Origin: Sphingomonas sp. HF-S4 | GTDB taxonomy: Bacteria > Pseudomonadota > Alphaproteobacteria > Sphingomonadales > Sphingomonadaceae | Reading direction: 5' to 3' | DNA length: 64,000 nt | Assembly: GCF_032911445.1 (NCBI RefSeq) | Contig: NZ_JAWJEJ010000001.1 | Span: forward strand, 1,674,001-1,738,000 | Part shown: positions 41,735 through 54,290 of the stretch, one piece after another | How the letters are laid out: each line of letters begins with the position of its first letter | Numbering within the stretch: the stretch's first letter is position 1 | The notes under the pieces: generated by a model | Told to the model about the DNA's origin: nothing | Seen by the model: only the letters and a program-made list of their open reading frames with translations | Databases searched by the model: none | Program-made: the position numbers and the translations under genes

Positions 41735-41809
41735 GGCCCCTTCGTCTAGCGGTTAGGACGTCGCCCTCTCACGGCGAAAACACGAGTTCGATTCTCGTAG
41801 GGGTCACCA
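41735..41809 (+). tRNA. tRNA-Glu (CTC)
   Basis: A complete cloverleaf with encoded CCA: acceptor GGCCCCT with AGGGGTC, D-arm GTCTAGCGGTTAGGAC, anticodon loop CTCTCAC (anticodon CTC), T-arm ACGAGTTCGATTCTCGT. Its 3' 44 bases plus six further bases are duplicated exactly at 54166-54215, so the gene is the integration site of the island to its right. Confidence 0.95.
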
Positions 41810-41815
41810 GCGTTT
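41766..41815. repeat. Attachment repeat, left copy (in tRNA-Glu)
   Basis: 50 bases from the anticodon loop of tRNA-Glu to six bases past its CCA. They are identical to 54166-54215. This is the expected attL of a tyrosine-recombinase island. Confidence 0.9.
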
Positions 41816-41849
41816 TCAGGCACTTAGTTGCCCGATAGCTGCACGTTCA

Positions 41850-41890
41850 TGCAATTTACTGCAGATTTACTGCAAAACCGTAGCTGGAAA
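41850..41890. repeat. Arm-site-like repeat next to the left attachment repeat
   Basis: TGCA-ATTTAC-TGCA-GATTTAC-TGCA is followed by AAACCGTAGCTGGAAA. Related copies lie at 54041-54071 and 54249-54290, always close to an attachment repeat. Short TGCARATTTAC units in tandem fit integrase arm-type binding sites, though this is inference. Confidence 0.55.
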
Positions 41891-42195
41891 TCGGCGGATT
41901 TTCTCGGATTGTTCCGCACAGCAGTTGGTGCGCTGGCGCGTCGCCAATGTCTGATTCGCGCCCCAATAGCCGTTGTTCGGCGCTGGTCATGGCGATCCCA
42001 AAAGCAGACATTCGTTCAGGTCGAGTCGCCTGACCCGAACGGTGGAGAGCCGTCTGTACGCTATCGAGTGACATTGGCCGGACAATGAAGAGGCAGAATG
42101 TTGACGGGGCATCGGGACCTTGCGCGTTACCTGCTGTTGAATGCGCAAAGCCATCTGACCGTTGGAGTGGCGGTTGCCACATGGTATGGGGACAC
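41891..42195. other. Non-coding stretch at the island's left end
   Basis: About 300 bases between the arm-site-like repeat and the first cargo gene. No convincing gene is seen in any frame. It presumably holds the promoter of the deoxyribosyltransferase-like gene; I see no clear promoter hexamers. Confidence 0.45.
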
Positions 42196-42669
42196 ATGAG
42201 GATCTACCTGTCTGGACCGATCACCGGCGCATCGTGCGAGGAGATCACGGACTGGCGGGTGCAGGCCGCGGCGATGCTCCCGGCCGGCGTGGATGTCTAC
42301 GATCCGGCATCTTCGCCATACGACGCAGAACTCGCGAGCGACGCGCCGGAGACGCCTTCTGCCGCGCTCGCGCGACTTATGCACGGGCGTCTGGTCGTCG
42401 ACCGCAACAAGCACATCATCCAGTCGTCCGACGTCGTGCTGGCGAACTTGCTGCGTAGCGACCGGGCGTCGATCGGCTCGATTGGCGAACTCTTCTGGGC
42501 AAACGCCTTCCGTATCCCGATCGTGATCGTCCGTGAACAATCGGGCAACGTCCACGATCATGCGATGCTGAATGCGATCGCCAGTGTCGTAACTTCATCG
42601 CTCGAAGATGGCTGTGAGGCGGCGCTGAACATTCTAGGGACCGACGCACGCGTCGGCGGCCGCGGCTAG
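42196..42669 (+). CDS. Nucleoside 2-deoxyribosyltransferase-like protein
   Basis: A 157-residue protein starting MRIYLSGPITGASCEEI. The N-terminal IYLSGPI strand-loop, the central VDRNKHIIQSSDVVLANLL and the segment SIGSIGELFWANAFRIPIVIV match the nucleoside 2-deoxyribosyltransferase-like fold (the Glu in IGELFWA is the likely catalytic residue). Proteins of this fold cleave or exchange N-glycosidic bonds of nucleosides or nucleotides and turn up in phage-conflict loci. The ATG at 42196 is preceded by GGGGA. Convergent with the radical SAM gene, with one base between stops. Confidence 0.75.
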   Translation: MRIYLSGPITGASCEEITDWRVQAAAMLPAGVDVYDPASSPYDAELASDAPETPSAALARLMHGRLVVDRNKHIIQSSDVVLANLLRSDRASIGSIGELFWANAFRIPIVIVREQSGNVHDHAMLNAIASVVTSSLEDGCEAALNILGTDARVGGRG

Positions 42670-42670
42670 C

Positions 42671-43921
42671 TCAGGCGGCGAGTTCTTGGGCGAGTTCCGA
42701 TGACTCGTAGATCTTGAAGCCGGTCTCGTCGATCTCGCCCGTCGGCCGCACTCCATCGAAGAAGGCAGGCGAGTAAGGGCTCTTCCCACCATTCCACCGC
42801 CGGCTCATCAGCGCGAGCCAGTCGGTGCGGCCTTCGCGCTGGTCGGCGGGGATTCGGCGGCGCCAGTCCATGTAGTTGCCGACCGATTGCGCCGGAGACC
42901 AGAGCTCTTCCAGCATGTCGAAGGTCACACGCTTGTCGGTACGCTCAAGGGAAGCCCGGATGGCGCCCACGAAATTCCCCGTGAAGTGGTTGGCCCCGTC
43001 TAGGGTAAGCTCGGAAGCGCCGCAGCAGCCGTTGCCGTCGCTCCACGGGATGAACTCCGTGTCGCCGGCGCCGAACTTGACGCCAAGGGTATGGGAAAGC
43101 TGCCTTGCGCGCCGGACGAAGGGACGCTTCGCATCCCTTGACAGCGACCAGTCGGGGCCCAACCGGACAACACCGAGCCCGCGCATCCGCCCGATGATGT
43201 CGTATCCCAGCGCCCTGCTGGCGGCGGCCATCTCGGTATCCATCGATTCTCCCGGTATTTTCAGGTACTCGAACGAGAGCTGTCGCGCCCCGGCTCTGGC
43301 AGCGGCCTCCGCCATCGCGAGGGCCTCCTCCTCGTGGCCGGGGAAAATCGGCTGGATCCGTAGTCCTGTGACGATGCGGCGCGCGCTCAGCGCTAGAAGC
43401 GCCTGCTCTGTCGCTGCGAACCCTTCGGTTTTGGGCTCGATGGCGCGGCGCAGCGGCTCCGGAATGCCGGCCGCCGAGAGGCGCACCACGACGTTCATGC
43501 CTTCCAGCAGAGAGAGGTAGGGCTCGCTGACGGGGAGCGATCCCTTCGTGCTGATGAGCGTCGGATAGCCGTGGTCTCGGAGGACGCCGAGCAGTTCGCG
43601 GGTGACGCCGAGTTCCGCCTCCATCGGGGTGAACGGATCCTGCAGGCCTCCCAGCTGCAAGGGCACTCGCCGGGCTAGGAACTCATCGACTGCGGACCGC
43701 ACGTCCCCGCGCGCCACGCGTTCGAGCCTCAGCCCCAGCGCCTTGGGGTTGGCCTGATGGATGCCCTTCGACGCCCAGGCCCGCGAGCGATCGCGCGAGA
43801 AGCAGTAGGTGCAGCCGAACTGGCAGGTATCGTATGAGTCCAGCCGGATGGGCGCGGCGCAGAAGAATATCTGTCCCGTTACGCTGAGTGCGTGCTTGTA
43901 GGTTCCCTGCGCTGTGGGCAT
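42671..43921 (-). CDS. SPL-family radical SAM protein
   Basis: A 416-residue protein related to spore photoproduct lyase-like/Rv2578c-type radical SAM enzymes. The cluster motif is CQFGCTYC (Cys-x3-Cys-x2-Cys) near residues 35-42. The barrel continues with LQLGGLQDPFTPMEAELG, YPTLISTKGS and GLRIQPIFPG. The ATG at 43921 (MPTAQGTYKHAL) fits the family; the open frame upstream is non-coding. The gene lies 50 bases downstream of the membrane-protein gene on the same strand. Substrate unknown: nucleic acid repair is one option, nucleotide modification another. Confidence 0.85.
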   Translation of the reverse strand: MPTAQGTYKHALSVTGQIFFCAAPIRLDSYDTCQFGCTYCFSRDRSRAWASKGIHQANPKALGLRLERVARGDVRSAVDEFLARRVPLQLGGLQDPFTPMEAELGVTRELLGVLRDHGYPTLISTKGSLPVSEPYLSLLEGMNVVVRLSAAGIPEPLRRAIEPKTEGFAATEQALLALSARRIVTGLRIQPIFPGHEEEALAMAEAAARAGARQLSFEYLKIPGESMDTEMAAASRALGYDIIGRMRGLGVVRLGPDWSLSRDAKRPFVRRARQLSHTLGVKFGAGDTEFIPWSDGNGCCGASELTLDGANHFTGNFVGAIRASLERTDKRVTFDMLEELWSPAQSVGNYMDWRRRIPADQREGRTDWLALMSRRWNGGKSPYSPAFFDGVRPTGEIDETGFKIYESSELAQELAA

Positions 43922-43971
43922 CGTCGGCCTATCCCTCTTTCGCGCCAGTCCGCCTGGTCCGCCCGCTCCTG

Positions 43972-44811
43972 CTACACATTCTGGAAGCAGCAGGGCGAAG
44001 GCGTTTGCGGTTTCGGAGTCAGCAATACATGGCCGACCGCCAGCCCGACGGCGAGGATTAGCAGGGCGCCGGCGAGCCTCACCAAGGACCATGCGATCCA
44101 GCGCGACACCGGGTTCTCCTTCGCCGCCTCGGTGAGGACGATCCAGAAGAGTTCCTTGACTTTCAGGTCGAGCTTCTCGTCACTCTCGCGGATTGGCAGC
44201 ACGTATTTTCTCTCTATCCCGTCCGCGCTCGACTTCACGGTGAAGCCCATGATCAGGTCGCGGTCGAAGTTGACGGGCTCGTGCACGCAGAAGTCGTAGG
44301 TCGGGGTCGATCCGTCGGGCTGCGTGATCTCGACCCTCTTGGCGAGGTAACTGCCTTTGAATGAAGCGGTCAGCGGCAGCCTCGACCGCGACATGGCGGC
44401 GACGTCCTTGCTGAGTTTCTTCGCGACGGTCTCCTCCAGCAGCTTGAACACGTGCTCGAGCGATTGGATTGCATGGTAGAACTGCCAGAGCACCCAGCGG
44501 TGCGAGTGCTTCTTATCGTCGTAGGACTTGAAGTCGGGATACTCTTGGAGAATCGGTGGGGCGCGAAACTTTATGATGCCGATTGCCACCGCGTAGCAGA
44601 CGACGGCGGCGATGAAGCAACCGAGCGCATATACGCCGAGGTTCACCAAGTCGGCGAACTTGGTGACGATGGCGATGACGGAGAACAGGGTCGCCAAGGA
44701 GAGGGCGCTGCTCATGCGCGACGCCCCAATCAAGAACTGCCAGTCGGACCTGAAGCTCTTCGCGACCCCCTCGACCGAGAACGAGTGGGTTCTTCCCGGC
44801 GTCCGTGTCAC
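43972..44811 (-). CDS. Membrane protein of unknown function, island cargo
   Basis: A 279-residue protein with two N-terminal helices (about 35-53 and 57-78), a cytosolic-type domain of about 150 residues (HSHRWVLWQFYHAIQSLEHVFKLLEETVAKKLSKD...) and a C-terminal helix (about 245-265). The GTG start has AAGGGGGAAG just upstream. I recognise no family. The order membrane protein-radical SAM suggests one operon. The architecture resembles effector or sensor membrane proteins of defence loci only in a general way. Confidence 0.7.
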   Translation of the reverse strand: MTRTPGRTHSFSVEGVAKSFRSDWQFLIGASRMSSALSLATLFSVIAIVTKFADLVNLGVYALGCFIAAVVCYAVAIGIIKFRAPPILQEYPDFKSYDDKKHSHRWVLWQFYHAIQSLEHVFKLLEETVAKKLSKDVAAMSRSRLPLTASFKGSYLAKRVEITQPDGSTPTYDFCVHEPVNFDRDLIMGFTVKSSADGIERKYVLPIRESDEKLDLKVKELFWIVLTEAAKENPVSRWIAWSLVRLAGALLILAVGLAVGHVLLTPKPQTPSPCCFQNV

Positions 44812-44939
44812 GCTTCCCCCTTGAGTGCCTGATCCTGCTTACCTGTCAGCAAGTTGCTGGACAATCGCGCAAAGGACAAGATCAGCGCTGTTGCGTCCGT
44901 CGCTATGGTTTCCGGCGACACTAGACGCTACGGGGCCTG

Positions 44940-45062
44940 ATGGGCCGCAACGCGCCCCAATTGTCGCCGTTCGGCCTGAGGGAGCGCTACCACGAAACCT
45001 GTCGTTCGCGCATCTTGAACGCCATGCCGGGGAACGATGCCTATCGCGACAAGCGCAAATAG
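44940..45062 (+). CDS. Possible 40-residue protein
   Basis: A short frame (MGRNAPQLSPFGLRERYHET, ending YRDKRK) in the 310-base gap between the divergent membrane and PIN-like genes. It is basic and has protein-like composition, but no strong ribosome site. It could be a real small protein, a fragment of a lost gene, or chance. Confidence 0.3.
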   Translation: MGRNAPQLSPFGLRERYHETCRSRILNAMPGNDAYRDKRK

Positions 45063-45122
45063 TGCGTTGGTCGTACGATCAGGCGGTCTGGTTCCGCGCA
45101 GCACGCAACCTATATTCGTTAG

Positions 45123-46238
45123 ATGAACGAAACAGTTGAGCCGAATGTCTCCGCGCCACCACCGGGCAGTACGCTTTTCGTCTTCCAAGAGATCGAGAAT
45201 CCGGGAGGCGGAGAGTCACGTAGGATTGGTTTCACGGAAGTCGATATCGCACCGCGAAGCTATGAGGAACTAGCGTCTGCCAAGCTTCACCAAGCGATCT
45301 CGATCCCGCTGGAGATGTACAATGGCCGCATCCTTGAGACCAATATCGAGGGCATCGACGTCAGCAAATACGCCAACCTGAAGGCGAAGCTCGAGAGTCC
45401 GTTCACCGCAAAGGCCATCGGGCTGGTGCGCGGAGGCTGGCTACCTTCCGGCCTCGCGGCATCGCGGAGCAATTCGGTAGTCCTTCCCGATCGCAATATC
45501 GTCTCGGAGATCGTTGGACGCTTCGATGATGGCAAGAAGACCGGCCGCGATCCCGACTTCCTCGACCTATTCGAAAACAGTCAGGTACAGATCAACCCGA
45601 TGCTCTTTCCGCTAGAAGGGAACGGCCGATCATTGCCTGACGCAACGCTCGCTACGTCGCAACTGGAAGAGGCCGTAATCAAGCTAGGAAAGGCGCTGCC
45701 CACCGCGACGCTGATGGTGGGGCCTGAATCTTTGAAGGGCTTACTCGGGCTGATCGAAGACATTCGGCCGATCATGATGCGAGAGCAGGCTTTCCTGCGG
45801 CGGGTGGCTCCAATGCTGGCGAACCAGATCGCTCGAAATAAGGTCGATGCCCGGTGGGACGAGGTGCTGGAAGCGGCTCGGGAGACTGGCGTGCCGATGG
45901 ACTCGCTGGCAGTGATCGCCGCACTCAGCACGGTGGCCAATTCAGGGGCATGCCCAGCACGCAAGCTTCTTAAGTTCCACGCGGCCTACACCGACGCGGA
46001 CGCCTATAACGCCCTGTCGGACCTCAACACATTGAAAGTGCTGATCTATTGCTTCGCACTGGCTCCCGATCTCAACACGCAACTCTGTACCGGCGACCGC
46101 AACCTCGCCTTGTTCTGGGTCGGGTTGCGCGCCTCGGACATGGCTTGGGATGGGACAATGATGAGCGCGTCCTTCACGCCGAATGCGGCGATCCTGCCGG
46201 AGCCGTACAACGAGCGCTGGGTAGCGGCGCTCGGCTAA
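45123..46238 (+). CDS. Unknown island protein, possibly PIN-like
   Basis: A 371-residue protein (MNETVEPNVSAPPPGSTLFV). No family is recognised with confidence. Two segments recall PIN nucleases: NSVVLPDRNIVSEIVGRFDD near residue 125, with an early Asp, and LCTGDRNLALFWVG near residue 325, the usual strand with a late acidic residue. Acidic residues between them (EEAV) could complete the set. The rest is helical. It lies 135 bases upstream of the HEPN-like gene on the same strand, and the pair is probably co-transcribed. Confidence 0.65.
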   Translation: MNETVEPNVSAPPPGSTLFVFQEIENPGGGESRRIGFTEVDIAPRSYEELASAKLHQAISIPLEMYNGRILETNIEGIDVSKYANLKAKLESPFTAKAIGLVRGGWLPSGLAASRSNSVVLPDRNIVSEIVGRFDDGKKTGRDPDFLDLFENSQVQINPMLFPLEGNGRSLPDATLATSQLEEAVIKLGKALPTATLMVGPESLKGLLGLIEDIRPIMMREQAFLRRVAPMLANQIARNKVDARWDEVLEAARETGVPMDSLAVIAALSTVANSGACPARKLLKFHAAYTDADAYNALSDLNTLKVLIYCFALAPDLNTQLCTGDRNLALFWVGLRASDMAWDGTMMSASFTPNAAILPEPYNERWVAALG

Positions 46239-46373
46239 TAAGGCGGGGGCGGCCCCGCGGACGGACCAGGATTCCCCGCAGGGAAACAACTTCTCAACAT
46301 CAGGGCGGCCGCGCAGGGAGGCGAAATCGGTCGATCTCTTTTGGCTGTCGCTGTTACCGACTAAGATCGCGCG

Positions 46374-47159
46374 ATGAAAACACTCGCGAGCTGTATGCAA
46401 TGCTTGGCCGAAGACGGCTCCCCCAATCTCGCGTCGATGGCGGTGGTGCAGGTTCCGGAAGGCGGAATCTTCGAGCACCGGTGCAACCGCGGGCATCAGA
46501 CCTTCACAGTCGTGCAGAACACCAAGTTCGAGTTGCTGGCCGACATGGCGATAAGGGCGTTGGTCGAGGAAGACTATCGGGGGGCTATCTCAAATTTCGC
46601 AGCCTCGCTTGAGCGGCTCTATGATTTCTTCACGACCGCCACCCTTCGCAAACACGGCGTAAAAGCTGCAGCGACCGACAAGGGCAGGAAGAGCCTCCGA
46701 CTCTCCGAGCGGCAGCTCGGCGCCTTTGTCACGGCCTATATGTTTGAAGTCGGCGAGGCCCCAGATCTGCTCGATCAGAAACTGGTCAAGCTGCGCAATG
46801 ACGTGGTCCATGGCGGTAAGCTCGCGGGCCGACCGGATGCTATCAAATTTGGAAAGGCCGTATGCGCCTGCGCGGCACCGGTCCTCGCAAGACTGGATTC
46901 CGAGCCATACCAGGACATCGTTCAGGATCTCACCGCCGAGCTTATGCGCTCGCGCAGGGGCGAGGTAGCAAACTCGCAATACCCGATCGGCACAGGCGCC
47001 GTCGTGACACTATTTAGTCCACGAAGCGGGCCGCGGCAGGTCGACCTCGAAAGGGAGATCGCCGAGTATGCACGGCGCCCGGATTTGAAGCAGATGGTCG
47101 AACAGGCGCGAGCTTTTGGCGCCTTCCTCGAAAAGAACGATGGTCCGTCCGCGACCTAG
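46374..47159 (+). CDS. Zinc-ribbon plus HEPN-like protein
   Basis: A 261-residue protein. The N-terminus has CMQC (residues 8-11) followed by HRCNRGH (about 36-42), a possible zinc ribbon. From about residue 55 a helical domain follows with GAISNFAASLERLYDFFTTAT and KLRNDVVHGGKL near 138-149. The latter contains Arg-x4-His (RNDVVH), the hallmark of HEPN RNase domains, so ribonuclease activity is a reasonable prediction. The C-terminal 60 residues have no motif. With its PIN-like neighbour it could form an RNA-cleaving conflict module; this is inference. Confidence 0.72.
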   Translation: MKTLASCMQCLAEDGSPNLASMAVVQVPEGGIFEHRCNRGHQTFTVVQNTKFELLADMAIRALVEEDYRGAISNFAASLERLYDFFTTATLRKHGVKAAATDKGRKSLRLSERQLGAFVTAYMFEVGEAPDLLDQKLVKLRNDVVHGGKLAGRPDAIKFGKAVCACAAPVLARLDSEPYQDIVQDLTAELMRSRRGEVANSQYPIGTGAVVTLFSPRSGPRQVDLEREIAEYARRPDLKQMVEQARAFGAFLEKNDGPSAT

Positions 47160-47699
47160 TTTCGCGTCGAAGGGAAAGGGCAAGCCGGCACGGGCGAGCC
47201 GGGCAAATTCTAGCAGCCCGACCAGCGAAAGTTGCTGGTGGGCTACGCGCAATAGCGCGCAAGAAAGCAGCTCCGTTCTCTCACTGACGTAAGGGGGATG
47301 TCCGCTGTCGTCCTTGTTTGGTCGGAATCTGCCAGTCCGCAGCTGGCCCAATAGCCGCCTTCCCCCTCTCCTTTCACGGCTGAAACACGGGTTCGATTCC
47401 CGTGGGGGTCACCAATGATTTCAATGGGTTAGCTATCTCAGTAACCCGCGTGTCAAATATTCATCAAATATCTTTCTGCGGATGCGCGCGGCCTCGCGCG
47501 GACAAAATTGGCATTTCGCGAAGCATTGCCCTGCCTCCCTGGGGAGGCGATTCGAAGGCGCTAGGCCATGGCCGGAATTGGGCCGTCAGCGGACTGGCAG
47601 CTTCCAAACTCAAACAGCGCTAAAGCCGACAGCCAATAGGCGGTCGACTGAAACCGCGCGGTCGCCGTGTTCGCGCGGACCAGTTTCGCAACGAAAATT
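47160..47699. other. Non-coding stretch with internal tRNA-Glu fragment
   Basis: 540 bases between the HEPN-like gene and the 3' end of the helicase gene. Besides the attachment-like repeat at 47371-47414 I see only short frames with random composition. The sequence just right of the repeat, around TCAAATATTCATCAAATATC (47452-47471), is AT-rich with a small direct repeat and may be a recombinase-binding region. Confidence 0.5.
47371..47414. repeat. Diverged tRNA-Glu 3' fragment inside the island
   Basis: CTTTCACGG followed by ACACGGGTTCGATTCCCGT and GGGGGTCACCA resembles the 3' half of a tRNA-Glu but differs at several positions from the CTC tRNA at 41735-41809; it is closer to a TTC-type tRNA-Glu. 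It has no 5' half and cannot be a functional tRNA. It probably marks the junction of two inserted segments. Confidence 0.75.
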
Positions 47700-50600
47700 T
47701 CAAGCAGTCCGAAAATGGTCGCGGATATAGCCTGTCGCCTCGCTGAGCTTCAGTTCCTGGGTGGAGTTTCCCGATCGAACATAAAAGCGCTCGGCCACGC
47801 TACCAGAACGGTCTGCCACGTTGATGAACACCGGTTGCGCCGACGCGTCCATGTCAACGCGACATAGGGCCATCCCGTCGACTTCAGGAAAGGTGATCCT
47901 GATTTTCGAGGCCCGGCAGGCCTGTCCGAAATGCTTGGCGAAGAGGTTTGTGAGGTGGAGCTCGAACTTGTCACGATTTCCGCCGAGGCATGAGAAGTCG
48001 CGCTCGAGGCCCTTCGCCTCGCCTTCGTCCGAGACGCCAATCAGAAGCGTGCCGCCCACCCGGTTGGCGAAGCCGGCGAGCGTTTTCAGCACGATGTCCT
48101 CGAGCTTCCTATTCTCACCCCCCAGCCGAACATCCCAGCGGATCGTCTCCTTGAACTCGAGTCGTTCGTGTTCTCCTTCGGAGATCAGCACCTGGATCGG
48201 CGATGCGGAGCGCGGCGGTTCTGCGACCGGGGCCGACGCTCCTAGGACAAGCCGGTCGTCGCGTCGTGCCAGCCAGTCCTTAGCAATCGCCTTCGTCCAA
48301 GCGTCGGCAACGACCTTGCGCAGTTGCGCGCTGGTCGACTTGAAGCCGAGCGTGCGGCAGACGACGGTGCTGACCTCCTCCTCGGTCGCTCCGAAATTCG
48401 CGCGAACGACGTCCATCACGGCGGCTTCGATCTCGGCCGGCGGCAACATGTCCGGTTTGCGCAGCGTCGCCGACCGGACGGCACCGCGATCCCGGACCTT
48501 CAGCTTGCTGCCCGGAATCGAGAGGAAGTCGCCGTCCTCCGACAATCGACCGACCTTAACCGAGATCTCGACCGCCCGTTCGATCGCCTCCTGGATGCGA
48601 CCGCCCGCCCTCTTCAGGCCCCAAGCTTCCCGGATCCTGTTCACGATCTCGTCGATGTGGATCGGGCCTTCGACGGCCACGACTTCTTCGGCCAGCGAGG
48701 ACAGGATGCCGCGCGGCGTGCTGTGGAGTTCGGTGGTCACGTGGGCGGGTATCGTAAGCGCCGCCTCCTGATAGATGGAGACCTCCGGCTGATCGTCGTT
48801 GGCGACCAGGCCGATCTCCGTGAGCCCCTCGCGCTCTACCGATACGATCTCGATCGGGACCGCACGGGTCGAGCGCCATCCTTCGGCCTGAGCGTCGTAT
48901 TCCGCCTTAGCGCTTTCGATCCGCGCGATGACGAGGTCCAACTGCTCGTTCGGCCGCTGAAACCAGTCCGTGCTCCAGATTCGATGGATGTTCCAGCCGT
49001 GGCTCTCCAGCACCGACTGCCTGAGCCGATCGCGGTCGCGGGCGGACCGTGCTCCGTGGTAGGAGGCGCCGTCGCATTCGATGCCGAGCAGATATCGGCC
49101 CGGCCGTTCCGTGTCCGCCACGGCCAGGTCTATGAAGAAGCCTGCCAGTCCGACCTGCCGGCTCACCTGATAGCCACGAGCCTGGAGCGCCTTGGCGACC
49201 TGTTCCTCGAACACGCTGTCGTGATCCCGGCCGGTGCTCTCCGCCATCGTCATCTGCCCAGTGCGCGCGAAGTGCATGAAGAGCCTGAAGGCGAACACCC
49301 CCTTGCGGGTCTGCGCGAAGTCGGGCTCGATATCCTCGTCCGTCATCGAAGAGAAGACCTCGCAGCGCTGCTTCGCGCGGCTGATGAGCACGTTGAGGCG
49401 ACGCTCGCCCCCCTCGGTCCCGAGCGGTCCGAAGCGCATGGGCACGCGGCCGCCGGGAACCGTCGGTCCATAGCCCACCGAGATGAAGATCACGTCGCGC
49501 TCGTCGCCCTGCACGTTTTCGAGGTTCTTGACGAAGAACGGTTCGGAAGGGTGCGACTGGAAGAAGTTTTCGACCTCCGGCGGCAGGGACCGGCGCAGCA
49601 CTTCGAGCTGGTCGAGGACCGCACGGCGCTGGGACGTCGAGAAGGTTGCGACGCCGAGCGAGAGGTTCGGGTGCTCGCGCGCATGCGCGACGATCGCCTG
49701 CGCCACCATCTTGGCCTCGACCGCGTTGGTCCGCGTGCCGCCGGCGTCCCAAATACCCTGCGGAATCTGGTGAAAGCGCAGACCCATGCCGGCCTCCGCC
49801 GTGTAGGGGCTCGGCACGATGAACAACTTGTTCTCGTAGAATTGGCGATTGCTGACGGCAATCAGGGACTGGTGCTTGCTGCGGTAGTGCCAGCGCAGCA
49901 TTCGCGTCGGCAAGCCGCGAGCGGTGAACAGGCCGAGCACACTCTCGATATCGGCGACCCTGCTGCCGGCATCGTCGTCCTCGTCGTTCGCCGCGCCGGT
50001 CATCTTCGAGAAGAAGGCCGTGGGCGGCAGCTGCTTGGGGTCGCCCACCACAACGACCTGCTTGGCCCGCGCCACTGCGCCCAGTGCGTCGACCGGCTGG
50101 ATTTGGCTCGCCTCGTCCATGACGAGAAGGTCGAAGTCGAAGATTCCGGGCGCAAGGAACTGGGCGACCGAGAGCGGGCTCATCATGAAGACAGGCTTCA
50201 GTGCCTGCACCGCAGGAGCGGCCCGTTCCATGAGCTTGCGGATCGGCATGTGTCCGCGCCTGCGCGCGATCTCGGCGCGCAGAACGCCGAGCGGCCCGAC
50301 CGAGCCGCCGTCGCGCGGCGGCACTGCCTGATGGTGCGCCTTCACGACCTCGTAGCTCGCCGCGGCGATGCGCTGGCGGTCCATGTCGGCGAACTCGCGC
50401 GCGAGACGACCATGCAGCGTTCCGTCGAACGTGCCGAGCTCGGGATCGGACTGCACTTGATCGGCATAGACCGCCTCGTAATAGGCCATCTCGTAAGCGC
50501 CGATCACAGCATCCGGCGCCAAGCGCCCGTCGGCGAGCCGCCGCACCACCTCACCGCACCCTAGCGCAGCGGCTCGTCCGGTTCGGTCGCGATAGGCGAC

Positions 50601-53600
50601 CCACTGGAACAGCTTCTCGTTGGACGCCGCCCATAGGGTGAGCTTGGCCTGCAGAGCCGAGATTTCGGTCGCCTCGGGATCGGCCGAACCGAGCGCCAGC
50701 TGGCGATCAAGCTGCAGCAGATCGAAGAGGGCGGACAGGTTAGAGGATAGCGTCGCGCGCTCCTCATCGAGTTGACGTGCCCTACGCAACGGCTCGCCCC
50801 GATCTTCGATCCGGCCGACGAGCAGACGGATGTCGCCGTTCCGCCGGATCCAGTCGGCGACCTCGCGCAGAAACGTCCAGTCCGACGCCTGCCCGCTCCA
50901 GCGCTCGCCGAAAGCAGAGCGGCCGGCCGTCTCGCCTTCCTCGATCGAGGCGGCAGCCCGCTGCCCAGCGACGACCGTCTGCAGCACACGGATGCGCGCC
51001 TCGATCTCGCCCGGCTCAGCCTTCAGTAGGCTCGCAGACACCCGCCGGGCTGTTGCGATCCGGTCGGCGAACGCGAGAACTGCGGCGAGGTTTGCCCGTC
51101 TGGCGTCGTCGGCATCGCCAAAGGCAAGCCCGCGGATATCTGCCAGATCGTCCCACAGCCGCGATACGATAGCGGAAAGGCCCGCCTCGAATTCGGCGAC
51201 GCGGGCGGCGCGGTTCGCTACTTCCGGCTTCTCCGGGCGCTTCGCCGCGATCAGCCGTGGTTCGGCGCCGAGTCCCCGCAGCGAGCGCATCCACTCGACC
51301 AGCGCCAGCAGCGGAGCCGAGGCGGAGCGCTCGCCGCGCCAATCAACGCCGAACGCGCTCCGGCCGAATTCCTCGTCGGTCTCGATTGCTCGCATCGCCT
51401 TCCGCCCCGCTGCGAGCGAATCCAGAAGTGACAGGACATCGCCCAGCGGAATGTCGGACCGCGTCAGGACGGACCTCACCAAGCGGTTACAGCGCCGCCA
51501 CTCGCCGCTGAGAAATCTGAAGAGGCCGCTCCCATGCGAGGCCAGGACGGCACGCGCTTCACCGAGGTCGAGGGACCACGCGGCATCGGATAGCCGCCCG
51601 TCGATCTCCACCCGCGAACGTTCGAGGAGGGCGACCGCCTGGGCGAGATCTGCAGCGCGTTCGACGCCATTGTCCCACAGATCCGCGGCGAAGGCTTCGG
51701 GGCTGGCGTCGGGGGCCGCCGCGACCCGCTCGCCCACGCGCGCCAGCCTCCCGGCGTCGGCGAGTGTGATGGGCGCATCGCGGCCGAGCGCGCGGGCGAG
51801 TGCCGCGCTGTCCGCGATCAGACGAGGCAGGTCGGCGGCGGATGCTGCCATCCGGTCGAACGCCTCTAGCGACCAGGAACCTGGGAGCAGCGACAGCGCG
51901 TTGATGGTCTCGTCGAGGTCGGCGGCCCATGCCGCATCGTAAACCGCCGACTCTAGCTCGAGCTTCAGGCCGGCATGCCGGGCACCGACCGTGAGCAGGT
52001 CATCGATGCGGGCCGCATCCGCCTCCCAGACGGCCGCGGACAGGGCCTCGGCCGCTATCGCCGGAGCCGCGACAATTCGCGCTCCTAGGTTGGTGAGCGA
52101 CGACAGGCCGGCGAGCGTTCTGGGCTTATCGGTCTCAACCTTGGCGGCAAGATCCCCCTGCGCGGCATCGTATACGCCGATCCTCGCTACCAGGTCCGAC
52201 AGCCGCACCATGAGTCGCTCAACGTCGGTCGGCAGGATGGATGAAAGGCCGACGCCCAGCCAAGGGTGTTCGTCCGGTCGTCCCAGCGTGACAACCCTCT
52301 CGGCAAGATCCGCAAGCAGGGAATGGCGCTCTGCGAAATCGTCGGCAGTCCAATCTGCGGCGCCTTCAAGCTCCAAGTCGGAAGGCTTCTCGCCGTCGAG
52401 CCGCAGACGGCTCAGCTGACCGACGACTTGGAACGGCGTCAAACCGGAGGTGCCGTGGGCAGCGTGCATTCGCTGGACATGTGCGTTGAGACGATCGCGC
52501 GCCTCGGTGAGCCTCGCGTTCAGCGTCCCCGGAGCCTGGCCGCGCGGAGCGCCCAGTTCCCACGTCCGGCGCAGCTCCTCCAGAAGGGCGCGCTTGTTCG
52601 CCTTGTTGCTGTGGAGCTCGAGACAGGCGTCGCCGACGCCGGTCGCGTCGAGGCGCCGCTTGACCACCTCCAGCGCCGCCATCTTCTCGGCGACGAACAA
52701 GACCGTCTTGCCGTCCGCCACGGCCGAGGCGATCACATTGGCGATGGTCTGGCTCTTGCCGGTTCCGGGCGGACCCTGAATGACGAGGTTCCTGCCCCGC
52801 CGGACCTCGTGCACCGCCAGCGCCTGCGAGCTGTCGCTATCCACGATATGGAGCATTTCGCTGGGCGGGATGAACGGGTCGATGTTCGAATCTTCGGGAA
52901 TCATCGCGTCGGATCCCTCGAACCCATCCGAGATGAGGCCCCTGATCAGATCGCGGTCTACAATCCTGCGACCCTCCGGCCAGACATCCGGGTCGAGGTC
53001 GCGATACATGAGAAACTTGGCGAAGGAGAAGAAACCGAGGACAATGTTGTCGCTGATCACCTCCCAACCCGGCTTCGCGGAGATCGCTTCCGCGACCTCG
53101 TCGAAGTAAGATGTGATATCGAAGGCGTCGCTCGCTTCGAACCCCGGCAGCCGGATGCCGTGCACCTTCTCAAGGAAGGCTTCGAGAGACAGATTGGAGG
53201 CGTAGTCCTCCTGACGCGCGCGCAGCTTGAACTTCTCGCCGGCGTTTCCGCGTTCCAGCGACACAGGGACAAGTACGAGGGGAGCGTAGCGGATGTTGGC
53301 CGCGTTCTGAGGATCGATCCACTTGAGCGCGCCAAGCGTCAGATAGAGGATGTTGACGCCCTGCTCCTCTTCCAGAGTGCGTGCGTCGAAGAAAAGGTCG
53401 AGCAGGCGCTTCTGAAGTCCCTTCGGCGTCAGCCGGGTCTGCAGTCTAGTGTCGGAGTGGCGGGCAAGAACGCCGCGCTCGTCGACCTCATCATCCTCGG
53501 GCTGCGCAAGGTCGACGATCTCGTCGACTTCCTCCTGTTCCCCGTCTGCTGCCTGTTCGTCACCCGCTGACTTGCCCGCAACGAAGGTGAAGGGACGGTT

Positions 53601-53819
53601 TTCCCGCACCAGCAGCCGGAACACCTCAGCGCTGACCTCATCGATAACTTCGAGGGCGCGGACGCTCTTTGATGAGCGCGGCATGTTGAGAAGCCGATTC
53701 CTGGCGGACAGATCCAGTAGTTCGGTGCGCGCCCTATCGAGCTTCTCTCGCAGCGGCAGGTTGCTCTGGAACACGGACGGGATTTCGCCCGTCTGTTCGT
53801 CATTCAGATTCGTCGCCAC
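47700..53819 (-). CDS. Giant DUF4011-helicase-Vsr-like nuclease-DUF3320-Schlafen/AlbA protein
   Basis: A 2,039-residue protein. Order: DUF4011-type N-terminus (about 20-320, ARTELLDLSARNRLLNM), Walker A GPPGTGKS at 349-356, a long Ala/Arg-rich coiled insert (about 430-1180), Walker B DEAS at 1235-1238, GDPKQLPPT, WHYRSKHQSLI and NVLISRAKQRCEV (SF1 helicase motifs). A Vsr/DUF559-like nuclease follows with FIDLAV and IECDGASYH (ECD at 1581-1583), then DUF3320 (about 1690-1770), a winged-helix-like segment, and a C-terminal AlbA_2/Schlafen domain (RLEFKET around Glu1888, then GTLLIGVSDEGEAKGLE). The GTG at 53819 has GGGGG upstream; a TTG at 53834 is possible. Proteins with this core are listed as phage-defence candidates. 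Confidence 0.9.
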   Translation of the reverse strand: MATNLNDEQTGEIPSVFQSNLPLREKLDRARTELLDLSARNRLLNMPRSSKSVRALEVIDEVSAEVFRLLVRENRPFTFVAGKSAGDEQAADGEQEEVDEIVDLAQPEDDEVDERGVLARHSDTRLQTRLTPKGLQKRLLDLFFDARTLEEEQGVNILYLTLGALKWIDPQNAANIRYAPLVLVPVSLERGNAGEKFKLRARQEDYASNLSLEAFLEKVHGIRLPGFEASDAFDITSYFDEVAEAISAKPGWEVISDNIVLGFFSFAKFLMYRDLDPDVWPEGRRIVDRDLIRGLISDGFEGSDAMIPEDSNIDPFIPPSEMLHIVDSDSSQALAVHEVRRGRNLVIQGPPGTGKSQTIANVIASAVADGKTVLFVAEKMAALEVVKRRLDATGVGDACLELHSNKANKRALLEELRRTWELGAPRGQAPGTLNARLTEARDRLNAHVQRMHAAHGTSGLTPFQVVGQLSRLRLDGEKPSDLELEGAADWTADDFAERHSLLADLAERVVTLGRPDEHPWLGVGLSSILPTDVERLMVRLSDLVARIGVYDAAQGDLAAKVETDKPRTLAGLSSLTNLGARIVAAPAIAAEALSAAVWEADAARIDDLLTVGARHAGLKLELESAVYDAAWAADLDETINALSLLPGSWSLEAFDRMAASAADLPRLIADSAALARALGRDAPITLADAGRLARVGERVAAAPDASPEAFAADLWDNGVERAADLAQAVALLERSRVEIDGRLSDAAWSLDLGEARAVLASHGSGLFRFLSGEWRRCNRLVRSVLTRSDIPLGDVLSLLDSLAAGRKAMRAIETDEEFGRSAFGVDWRGERSASAPLLALVEWMRSLRGLGAEPRLIAAKRPEKPEVANRAARVAEFEAGLSAIVSRLWDDLADIRGLAFGDADDARRANLAAVLAFADRIATARRVSASLLKAEPGEIEARIRVLQTVVAGQRAAASIEEGETAGRSAFGERWSGQASDWTFLREVADWIRRNGDIRLLVGRIEDRGEPLRRARQLDEERATLSSNLSALFDLLQLDRQLALGSADPEATEISALQAKLTLWAASNEKLFQWVAYRDRTGRAAALGCGEVVRRLADGRLAPDAVIGAYEMAYYEAVYADQVQSDPELGTFDGTLHGRLAREFADMDRQRIAAASYEVVKAHHQAVPPRDGGSVGPLGVLRAEIARRRGHMPIRKLMERAAPAVQALKPVFMMSPLSVAQFLAPGIFDFDLLVMDEASQIQPVDALGAVARAKQVVVVGDPKQLPPTAFFSKMTGAANDEDDDAGSRVADIESVLGLFTARGLPTRMLRWHYRSKHQSLIAVSNRQFYENKLFIVPSPYTAEAGMGLRFHQIPQGIWDAGGTRTNAVEAKMVAQAIVAHAREHPNLSLGVATFSTSQRRAVLDQLEVLRRSLPPEVENFFQSHPSEPFFVKNLENVQGDERDVIFISVGYGPTVPGGRVPMRFGPLGTEGGERRLNVLISRAKQRCEVFSSMTDEDIEPDFAQTRKGVFAFRLFMHFARTGQMTMAESTGRDHDSVFEEQVAKALQARGYQVSRQVGLAGFFIDLAVADTERPGRYLLGIECDGASYHGARSARDRDRLRQSVLESHGWNIHRIWSTDWFQRPNEQLDLVIARIESAKAEYDAQAEGWRSTRAVPIEIVSVEREGLTEIGLVANDDQPEVSIYQEAALTIPAHVTTELHSTPRGILSSLAEEVVAVEGPIHIDEIVNRIREAWGLKRAGGRIQEAIERAVEISVKVGRLSEDGDFLSIPGSKLKVRDRGAVRSATLRKPDMLPPAEIEAAVMDVVRANFGATEEEVSTVVCRTLGFKSTSAQLRKVVADAWTKAIAKDWLARRDDRLVLGASAPVAEPPRSASPIQVLISEGEHERLEFKETIRWDVRLGGENRKLEDIVLKTLAGFANRVGGTLLIGVSDEGEAKGLERDFSCLGGNRDKFELHLTNLFAKHFGQACRASKIRITFPEVDGMALCRVDMDASAQPVFINVADRSGSVAERFYVRSGNSTQELKLSEATGYIRDHFRTA

Positions 53820-54040
53820 CCCAACCCCCTGCAAATCGCCCGAAGTCGATGATTCCGCGTCAGAAGTGGTAAGTCGAGTCGAATTCCATCTTTATTGGCA
53901 GTGGCGGGTAGCCAAGCGCCCTGCCCCGCGTCAGCGCGTGCCAGTAGGGAGCGTTCCGCTTCGCAAGCGGCGCTCGCGCGGTTCTGCTGTCGAGCCGTTG
54001 ATTGCGGATAATTCGCGCCATCGGGAACCTCGCGATCTCA

Positions 54041-54071
54041 CTGCAAATTCACTGCAAAACCGTAGCAGAAA
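54041..54071. repeat. Arm-site-like repeat, second copy
   Basis: CTGCAAATTCACTGCAAAAC then CGTAGCAGAAA, related to 41850-41890. It lies 95 bases left of the right attachment repeat, inside the island. Confidence 0.5.
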
Positions 54072-54165
54072 TGGTGTGGACGTGGAAGGACCGATTTTGC
54101 TAAGTGATTGATGAAACACGAATACATACACGTCCATATGGACCAGAAACCCCCTCTGAGCGGCG

Positions 54166-54215
54166 CTCTCACGGCGAAAACACGAGTTCGATTCTCGTAG
54201 GGGTCACCAGCGTTT
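54166..54215. repeat. Attachment repeat, right copy
   Basis: Identical over 50 bases to 41766-41815. It lacks the 5' half of the tRNA and so is not a gene. It marks the right end of the tRNA-Glu island. Confidence 0.9.
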
Positions 54216-54248: not shown

Positions 54249-54290
54249 TGCAACTTTAGTGCAGATTTACTGGAAAACCGTAGCTGGAAA
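54249..54290. repeat. Arm-site-like repeat, third copy
   Basis: TGCA-ACTTTAG-TGCA-GATTTACTGG is followed by AAAACCGTAGCTGGAAA, matching 41850-41890. It sits 33 bases right of the right attachment repeat, at the same distance as the left pair, so the duplicated unit extends beyond the 50-bp identity. Confidence 0.55.

Follow-up and report, generated by a model that had tools for sequence, protein, structure and literature searches.

A ProA-type helicase-nuclease gene on a tRNA-Glu island of Sphingomonas sp. HF-S4 ends in a Schlafen/AlbA_2 domain, a candidate RNase arm

The described systems closest to the gene reported here are the anti-phage protein ProA (NCBIfam NF058533), the PADLOC entry PDC-S37, Hhe, whose helicase is assigned to SF1_Upf1 in the extract of PMC10925250, and the MTES_1575-type proteins, for which the extract of Anantharaman et al. 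2013 (PMC3710099) describes a Vsr-like nuclease, a winged helix-turn-helix overlapping DUF3320, a HEPN domain and a transglutaminase. Our gene lies at 47700–53819 on the minus strand of a 64,000-nt stretch of Sphingomonas sp. HF-S4 DNA (contig NZ_JAWJEJ010000001.1, positions 1,674,001 to 1,738,000; hereafter the window, in whose numbering all coordinates are given) and encodes a protein of 2039 residues. With ProA it shares the DUF4011-helicase-Vsr-like nuclease-DUF3320 chassis, with PDC-S37 the core profile, with Hhe the general chassis, and with the MTES_1575-type proteins the Vsr-like nuclease and the winged helix at DUF3320, but it has a C-terminal Schlafen-type domain (AlbA_2), whereas those are described with a HEPN domain and a transglutaminase. 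While the anti-phage core is thus known, the variant with a Schlafen-type tail is new, and the larger interest lies in a possible reusable ribonuclease (RNase) arm on restriction-type proteins. Among the literature matches listed, none treats a fusion of DUF4011 with Schlafen/AlbA or describes a defence protein called 'ProA', and the DefensePredictor paper (PMC13092281) contains none of five terms checked in it.

The open reading frame (ORF) is intact, with zero internal stops between a GTG start at 53819 and a stop at 47700–47702, and has homologues of equal length; the alternative start is a TTG five codons upstream. An open frame of 2039 residues that has such domain matches, and homologues in the thousands (7957 in a protein search at E ≤ 0.001), lies in our judgement far beyond chance. 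Ten Pfam families exceed their curated cut-offs in the protein. From the N-terminus, and all on the minus strand, the layout begins with DUF4011 (residues 33–216, 53172–53723; PF13195, 2e-40), followed by a superfamily 1 (SF1) helicase, matched by AAA_11 and AAA_12, whose first part (52410–52832) holds the Walker A motif GPPGTGKS at 349–356 and whose second part (49320–50504) holds DEAS (1235–1238), GDPKQLPP (1259–1266), GDERD (1438–1442) and SRAK (1480–1483). Between helicase motifs I and II lies a poorly conserved insert (about residues 471–1105, 50505–52409), where the query residue recurs in a mean fraction of 0.48 of the 68 proteins aligned, and where an internal duplication suspected by eye was not recovered by BLAST of the sequence against itself. 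Next come the MTES_1575 Vsr-like nuclease (residues 1537–1634, 48918–49211; 4e-37), with D1564, E1581, D1583 and H1588 and an ECD nuclease-like motif at 1581–1583, the DUF3320 winged-helix-like segment (residues 1697–1744, 48588–48731; PF11784, 4e-17), for which the model gives helices, a second winged-helix-like segment (about residues 1790–1860, 48240–48452) drawn from the model and from winged-helix structural matches, and finally the Schlafen/AlbA_2 domain (residues 1871–2039, 47703–48209). A preliminary description, made from the letters alone, had proposed this fusion of core and AlbA_2 domain, and both the single frame and the cited motifs of helicase, nuclease and tail were found where it had placed them. 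Throughout 121 proteins (the best 120 of the 7957 matches and the query), no change is seen in Walker A, DEAS, GDERD, SRAK and ECDG, and D1564 is kept in 119 and H1588 in 116. Around the gene, 0 sigma-70 promoter-like sequences were seen, and 1 terminator-like sequence against 5.1 expected.

As to the core, which the same description had called defence-like, what needed correction is that it is not new, since it matches an already named anti-phage family. The protein scores 1597 bits against NF058533 (cut-off 1500; 1598.2 bits in the genome search). Its match begins at model position 349, and because the first 348 positions are unmatched we regard it as a peripheral member of ProA. The N-terminal extension, which in 21 of the best 30 ProA-model loci reaches up to 349–434 residues (upper bounds, counted from the preceding stop codon), is likewise missing from L173 and L174, two further loci that exceed the cut-off. 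In the ProA-model loci L150–L170 this extension, absent from the tailed group, is perhaps transglutaminase-like, one of five sequences giving a weak match of that kind. None of the best 30 loci carries an AlbA_2 tail, though two of them have cut-short C-terminal ends. Across a phylum draw of 398 genomes, the ProA model found some match in 135 and exceeded its cut-off in 32. The best PADLOC match is PDC-S37 (1850 bits, the library giving no cut-off for it), which extends to model position 1543 of 1550 and whose best stretch ends at residue 1856; as aligned, the AlbA_2 tail falls outside both this model and that of ProA. Hhe is a more distant relative, with 750 bits in PADLOC and, in NCBIfam, 1055.8 bits, under the cut-off of 2000.

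The tail itself matches Pfam SLFN_AlbA_2 (PF04326) at residues 1883–2023 with 47.0 bits (4.5e-12; gathering cut-off 25.3). This is the single match to that family in the protein, and in SLFN14 the active-site arginine R133 belongs to the second lobe. Modelled alone, the AlbA domain has a predicted local distance difference test score of 93.4, and the 20 chains that match it best in structure are all of the AlbA_2/Schlafen kind, the SAMD9 tRNase domain among them. Residues 1880–2030 are covered by such matches, in line with the fold first proposed, and in the model the catalytic-lobe fold of a Schlafen/SAMD9-type RNase is present. The ExxxxExK signature (E1883, E1888 and K1890, with ERLEFKE beginning at residue 1885) is invariant in all 68 tailed proteins, and D1931, within the GVSDEG that begins at 1928, is kept in 66 of them. 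In the domain at large variation prevails, 25 of its 141 positions being invariant. Together with the unbroken helicase and nuclease motifs, the conserved signature bears out the earlier impression that the predicted active sites are intact. Moreover, the corresponding residues in active SLFN14 bind metal and RNA phosphate. Judged from the model, the tail truly belongs to the Schlafen/SAMD9 type and keeps its catalytic signature intact, set on a known anti-phage chassis. It resembles the animal Schlafens and the SAMD9/SAMD9L tRNase domain in fold and ExxxxExK, and differs from them in having one lobe, in its C-terminal position on a bacterial helicase-nuclease and in an RNase role that is predicted.

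The reading we favour, at about even odds, is that of a mobile ProA/PDC-S37-type protein that acts against phage as a lone gene and has gained an RNase arm. It is built on the intact gene, its domains, the tail fold, the invariant residues, the co-variation of tail and core, the island and the lone-gene transfer, all taken directly from the analysis. What we infer is that the gene defends against phage, that the protein senses DNA and cuts RNA, what triggers it and in which order the steps follow, and this may be pictured as follows. The DUF4011/Upf1-like SF1 helicase would engage nucleic acid that is foreign or abnormal, DNA would be nicked or cut by the Vsr-like nuclease, and the winged helices would couple the helicase's engagement to the Schlafen-type domain. 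That domain would cut tRNA or other RNA via the metal-binding E1883/E1888 and K1890 and stop translation, acting as a second effector or one of last resort. If the tail does cut RNA, DNA restriction and the arrest of translation would be combined in a single polypeptide.

Several observations weigh against an RNase arm in a defence protein. The AlbA_2 fold serves also in plain nucleic-acid binding and regulation, RNA cutting being one conjectured use of it here, and the fold matches of the tail to DNA-bound SAMD9 and DIP2311 are equally good. AlbA_2 is often annotated as DNA-binding, both in some protein names and in the extract of a pAgo paper (PMC6299218). Nor is ExxxxExK diagnostic or a proof of cutting, as it is common in AlbA_2. 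Of the 14 AlbA_2 loci of the order, seven were parsed by eye, giving ExxxxExK in four (one being the query) and ExxxxDxK in three, with the pattern unrecognised in the remaining seven; ExxxxEFK occurs in 119 of the 120 proteins listed for a search with a GmrSD protein's tail (see below) and in 97 of the 120 listed for the query tail. Absence of the tail is, moreover, tolerated in relatives, and the neighbouring genes favour a single-gene system while giving no guilt by association for defence. Because motif and fold are both common to AlbA_2 proteins of other function, a binding-only role is a serious rival: the tail would bind nucleic acid or dimerise without catalysis, positioning the helicase-nuclease on DNA, and enzyme activity would be confined to the helicase and the Vsr-like nuclease. 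We attach real, if minority, weight to it, the unvarying E1883, E1888 and K1890 in an otherwise variable domain and the metal and phosphate contacts of their SLFN14 equivalents speaking for catalysis instead.

Within the 121 proteins, the tail is present in 68 and lacking in 53. Among named loci (the best 80 of 256), the core frame is found in 79, and six of these 79 carry the tail, a count that includes near-copies (four Sphingomonas, one Rhodospirillales metagenome-assembled genome and one Caulobacter). When 118 genomes were drawn evenly across the order, 14 had any AlbA_2 domain, and a frame of about 2000 residues with AlbA_2 occurred in the window's own genome only, where it is the sole AlbA_2 domain; the next longest frame has 849 residues. 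The fusion, which the preliminary description presented as an extra domain on the core and whose co-occurrence it had left to a survey, is not unusual inside its clade. A quick tree built from 87 core sequences places the 29 tailed rows, without exception, inside one starred clade of 57, with at least four state changes required and two forced by starred branches, and a FastTree of 200 rows needs six. In an AlbA_2 domain tree (100 rows kept of 309), one starred set of 29 rows holds the 22 tails of the query kind together with seven short proteins of 160–287 residues, candidate fragments or free-standing domains. Core distances correlate with tail distances over the 68 tailed members (Spearman 0.77, with 0 of 500 permutations as high; 0.82 for the winged-helix region). 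The simplest reading would be a single acquisition of the tail with later losses or transfers, though gain and loss are indistinguishable on these trees. Remnants of a lost tail were not found 3' of tail-less genes, the matches there being ends of genuine tails (L016, L018, L023 and L079). With the tail evidently dispensable in nature, tailed and tail-less relatives form a natural experiment, one chassis with and without the arm. In one genome (G021), residues 9–374 and 1114–2037 lie in separate open frames (L004 and L137) with the middle missing, a rearranged natural copy that is probably broken.

Related tails also occur on other proteins, a plasmid search with the tail itself matching 12 records. 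On S. meliloti pSymA (L180), GmrSD_N and AlbA_2 are joined in a protein of 711 residues close to genes for a recombinase and a type I methylase, and on a Pseudoalteromonas plasmid N6_Mtase and AlbA_2 are joined upstream of type I restriction genes, the latter tail forming a very long branch in the domain tree. These two are like our protein in bearing AlbA_2 C-terminally on a restriction-type protein, and differ in their other DNA-acting chassis and in tails that sit on separate branches. Domain scans further gave a bPH_2 and AlbA_2 combination and, in Leptolyngbya, an SNF2/PLD protein after which comes an AlbA_2 frame that overlaps it. The GmrSD protein's tail, used as a query, found 2250 proteins, with PF03235 and PF04326 both in 116 of the 120 listed; among these, GmrSD_N with Schlafen/AlbA_2 forms a conserved family, mostly of about 711 residues. 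Such C-terminal domains on GmrSD restriction proteins and an N6-methylase, the co-variation of tail and core, and the C-terminal placement of the tail after two winged helices would suit a sensor or brake, which binds RNA, tRNA or a phage product and releases the helicase-nuclease without being an effector. We think this unlikely, as sensing does not require an intact catalytic motif.

The PrrC anticodon nuclease guards a type I enzyme. As tRNA-cutting defence it is treated in the extract of PMC12851939, and BREX loci also contain Schlafen-family RNases, proposed as back-up effectors in the extract of PMC12839542. By analogy, and tentatively, since we hold it to be rather doubtful, a portable C-terminal Schlafen-type RNase (AlbA_2 subtype, VRSGN ending) may sit on several unrelated DNA-restriction chassis as a tRNA-cutting fail-safe, a one-polypeptide counterpart of PrrC and a bacterial relative of SLFN/SAMD9. 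The proposed set comprises the DUF4011 helicase-nuclease, GmrSD, the N6-methylase in a type I locus and, as an overlapping neighbouring frame, SNF2/PLD. If the tail cuts RNA, its presence on GmrSD and methylase proteins as well would point to a fail-safe module that can be reused, and to relatives of the human SLFN/SAMD9 antiviral tRNases in bacteria.

The gene lies in an island bordered by a tRNA gene and att-like repeats. The integration target is a tRNA-Glu (CTC) at 41735–41809 (plus strand), and a 53-nt far copy of its 3' end (54163–54215, plus strand; 98%, 1 mismatch in 47) forms the att-like border. An internal, more diverged att-like copy (47368–47420, plus strand; 8 mismatches in 47) is nearer to the genome's tRNA-Glu (TTC), at 4 of 47. 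Besides these two repeats, the island (41735–54215) is accompanied by 36-nt arm-like repeats at 41855–41890, 54037–54072 and 54255–54290. A clean empty site, with both flanks together, was not found in the genus sample; in two related genomes, however, the receptor gene and tRNA-Glu are present, about 1.3 kb further apart, without the island and with a different downstream flank, DNA similarity stopping at the tRNA-Glu or 18 bp beyond. Over the 20.0 and 13.9 kb read in these two, one att copy is seen, and the query protein has no match. The gene has been transferred alone: Sphingomonas sp. TDK1 shares 47573–53910 at 95.7% (the gene, 127 bp past its stop and 91 bp before its start), and there the gene (96%) stands at another site, adjoining an integrase and a PDC-S06-like ATPase. 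The GC content over the gene (0.62–0.70) is not unusual for the profiled part of the window.

A role in host DNA or RNA maintenance rather than defence would accord with the helicase's sequence matches to Smubp-2, Sen1 and Upf1 chains (besides RecA-fusion chains) and with a DUF4011 gene that is core in P. aeruginosa according to the extract of PMC10250203. We consider it highly improbable given the island and the transfer of the gene alone, the anti-phage name that NCBI gives the family, and a patchy distribution: of 37 genomes sampled from the genus, its own included, matches extend into the tail in 4. As to mobile elements, 455 plasmid records match the protein, none of the 25 listed extending into the tail. 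Five phage records match, none covering more than 80% of the query, the best being an unannotated faecal phage (61% coverage, 32% identity) that ends at residue 1801. Two pattern matches to the tail in viral contigs were not confirmed, the patterns coming from one sequence and reaching close relatives only.

Among the five other island genes examined, Pfam and PHROGs gave no integrase and PADLOC no match better than E 0.022. Nor did any neighbour recur broadly among 403 roughly called neighbours of 80 loci, the largest cluster comprising 10 loci, mostly Mesorhizobium. With no PADLOC-matching or broadly recurrent neighbours, genomic context was rejected as support for defence. The ORFs at 43972–44811 (minus strand) and 45123–46238 (plus strand) have no Pfam, PADLOC or PHROGs match. 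A 261-residue ORF at 46374–47159 (plus strand) matches the phage family phrog_19381 (3e-44) and has a zinc-ribbon-like start and an RNDVVH stretch (RX4H, HEPN-like), though its HEPN match is weak (0.068). The ORF at 42085–42669 (plus strand) is nucleoside 2-deoxyribosyltransferase-like, just under the Pfam cut-off, a type encountered in defence loci. At 42671–44092 (minus strand) lies a radical SAM protein, below the Pfam cut-off; in P. aeruginosa, too, the DUF4011 gene of the cDHS1 hotspot is flanked by a radical SAM gene (extract of PMC10250203), possibly by coincidence.

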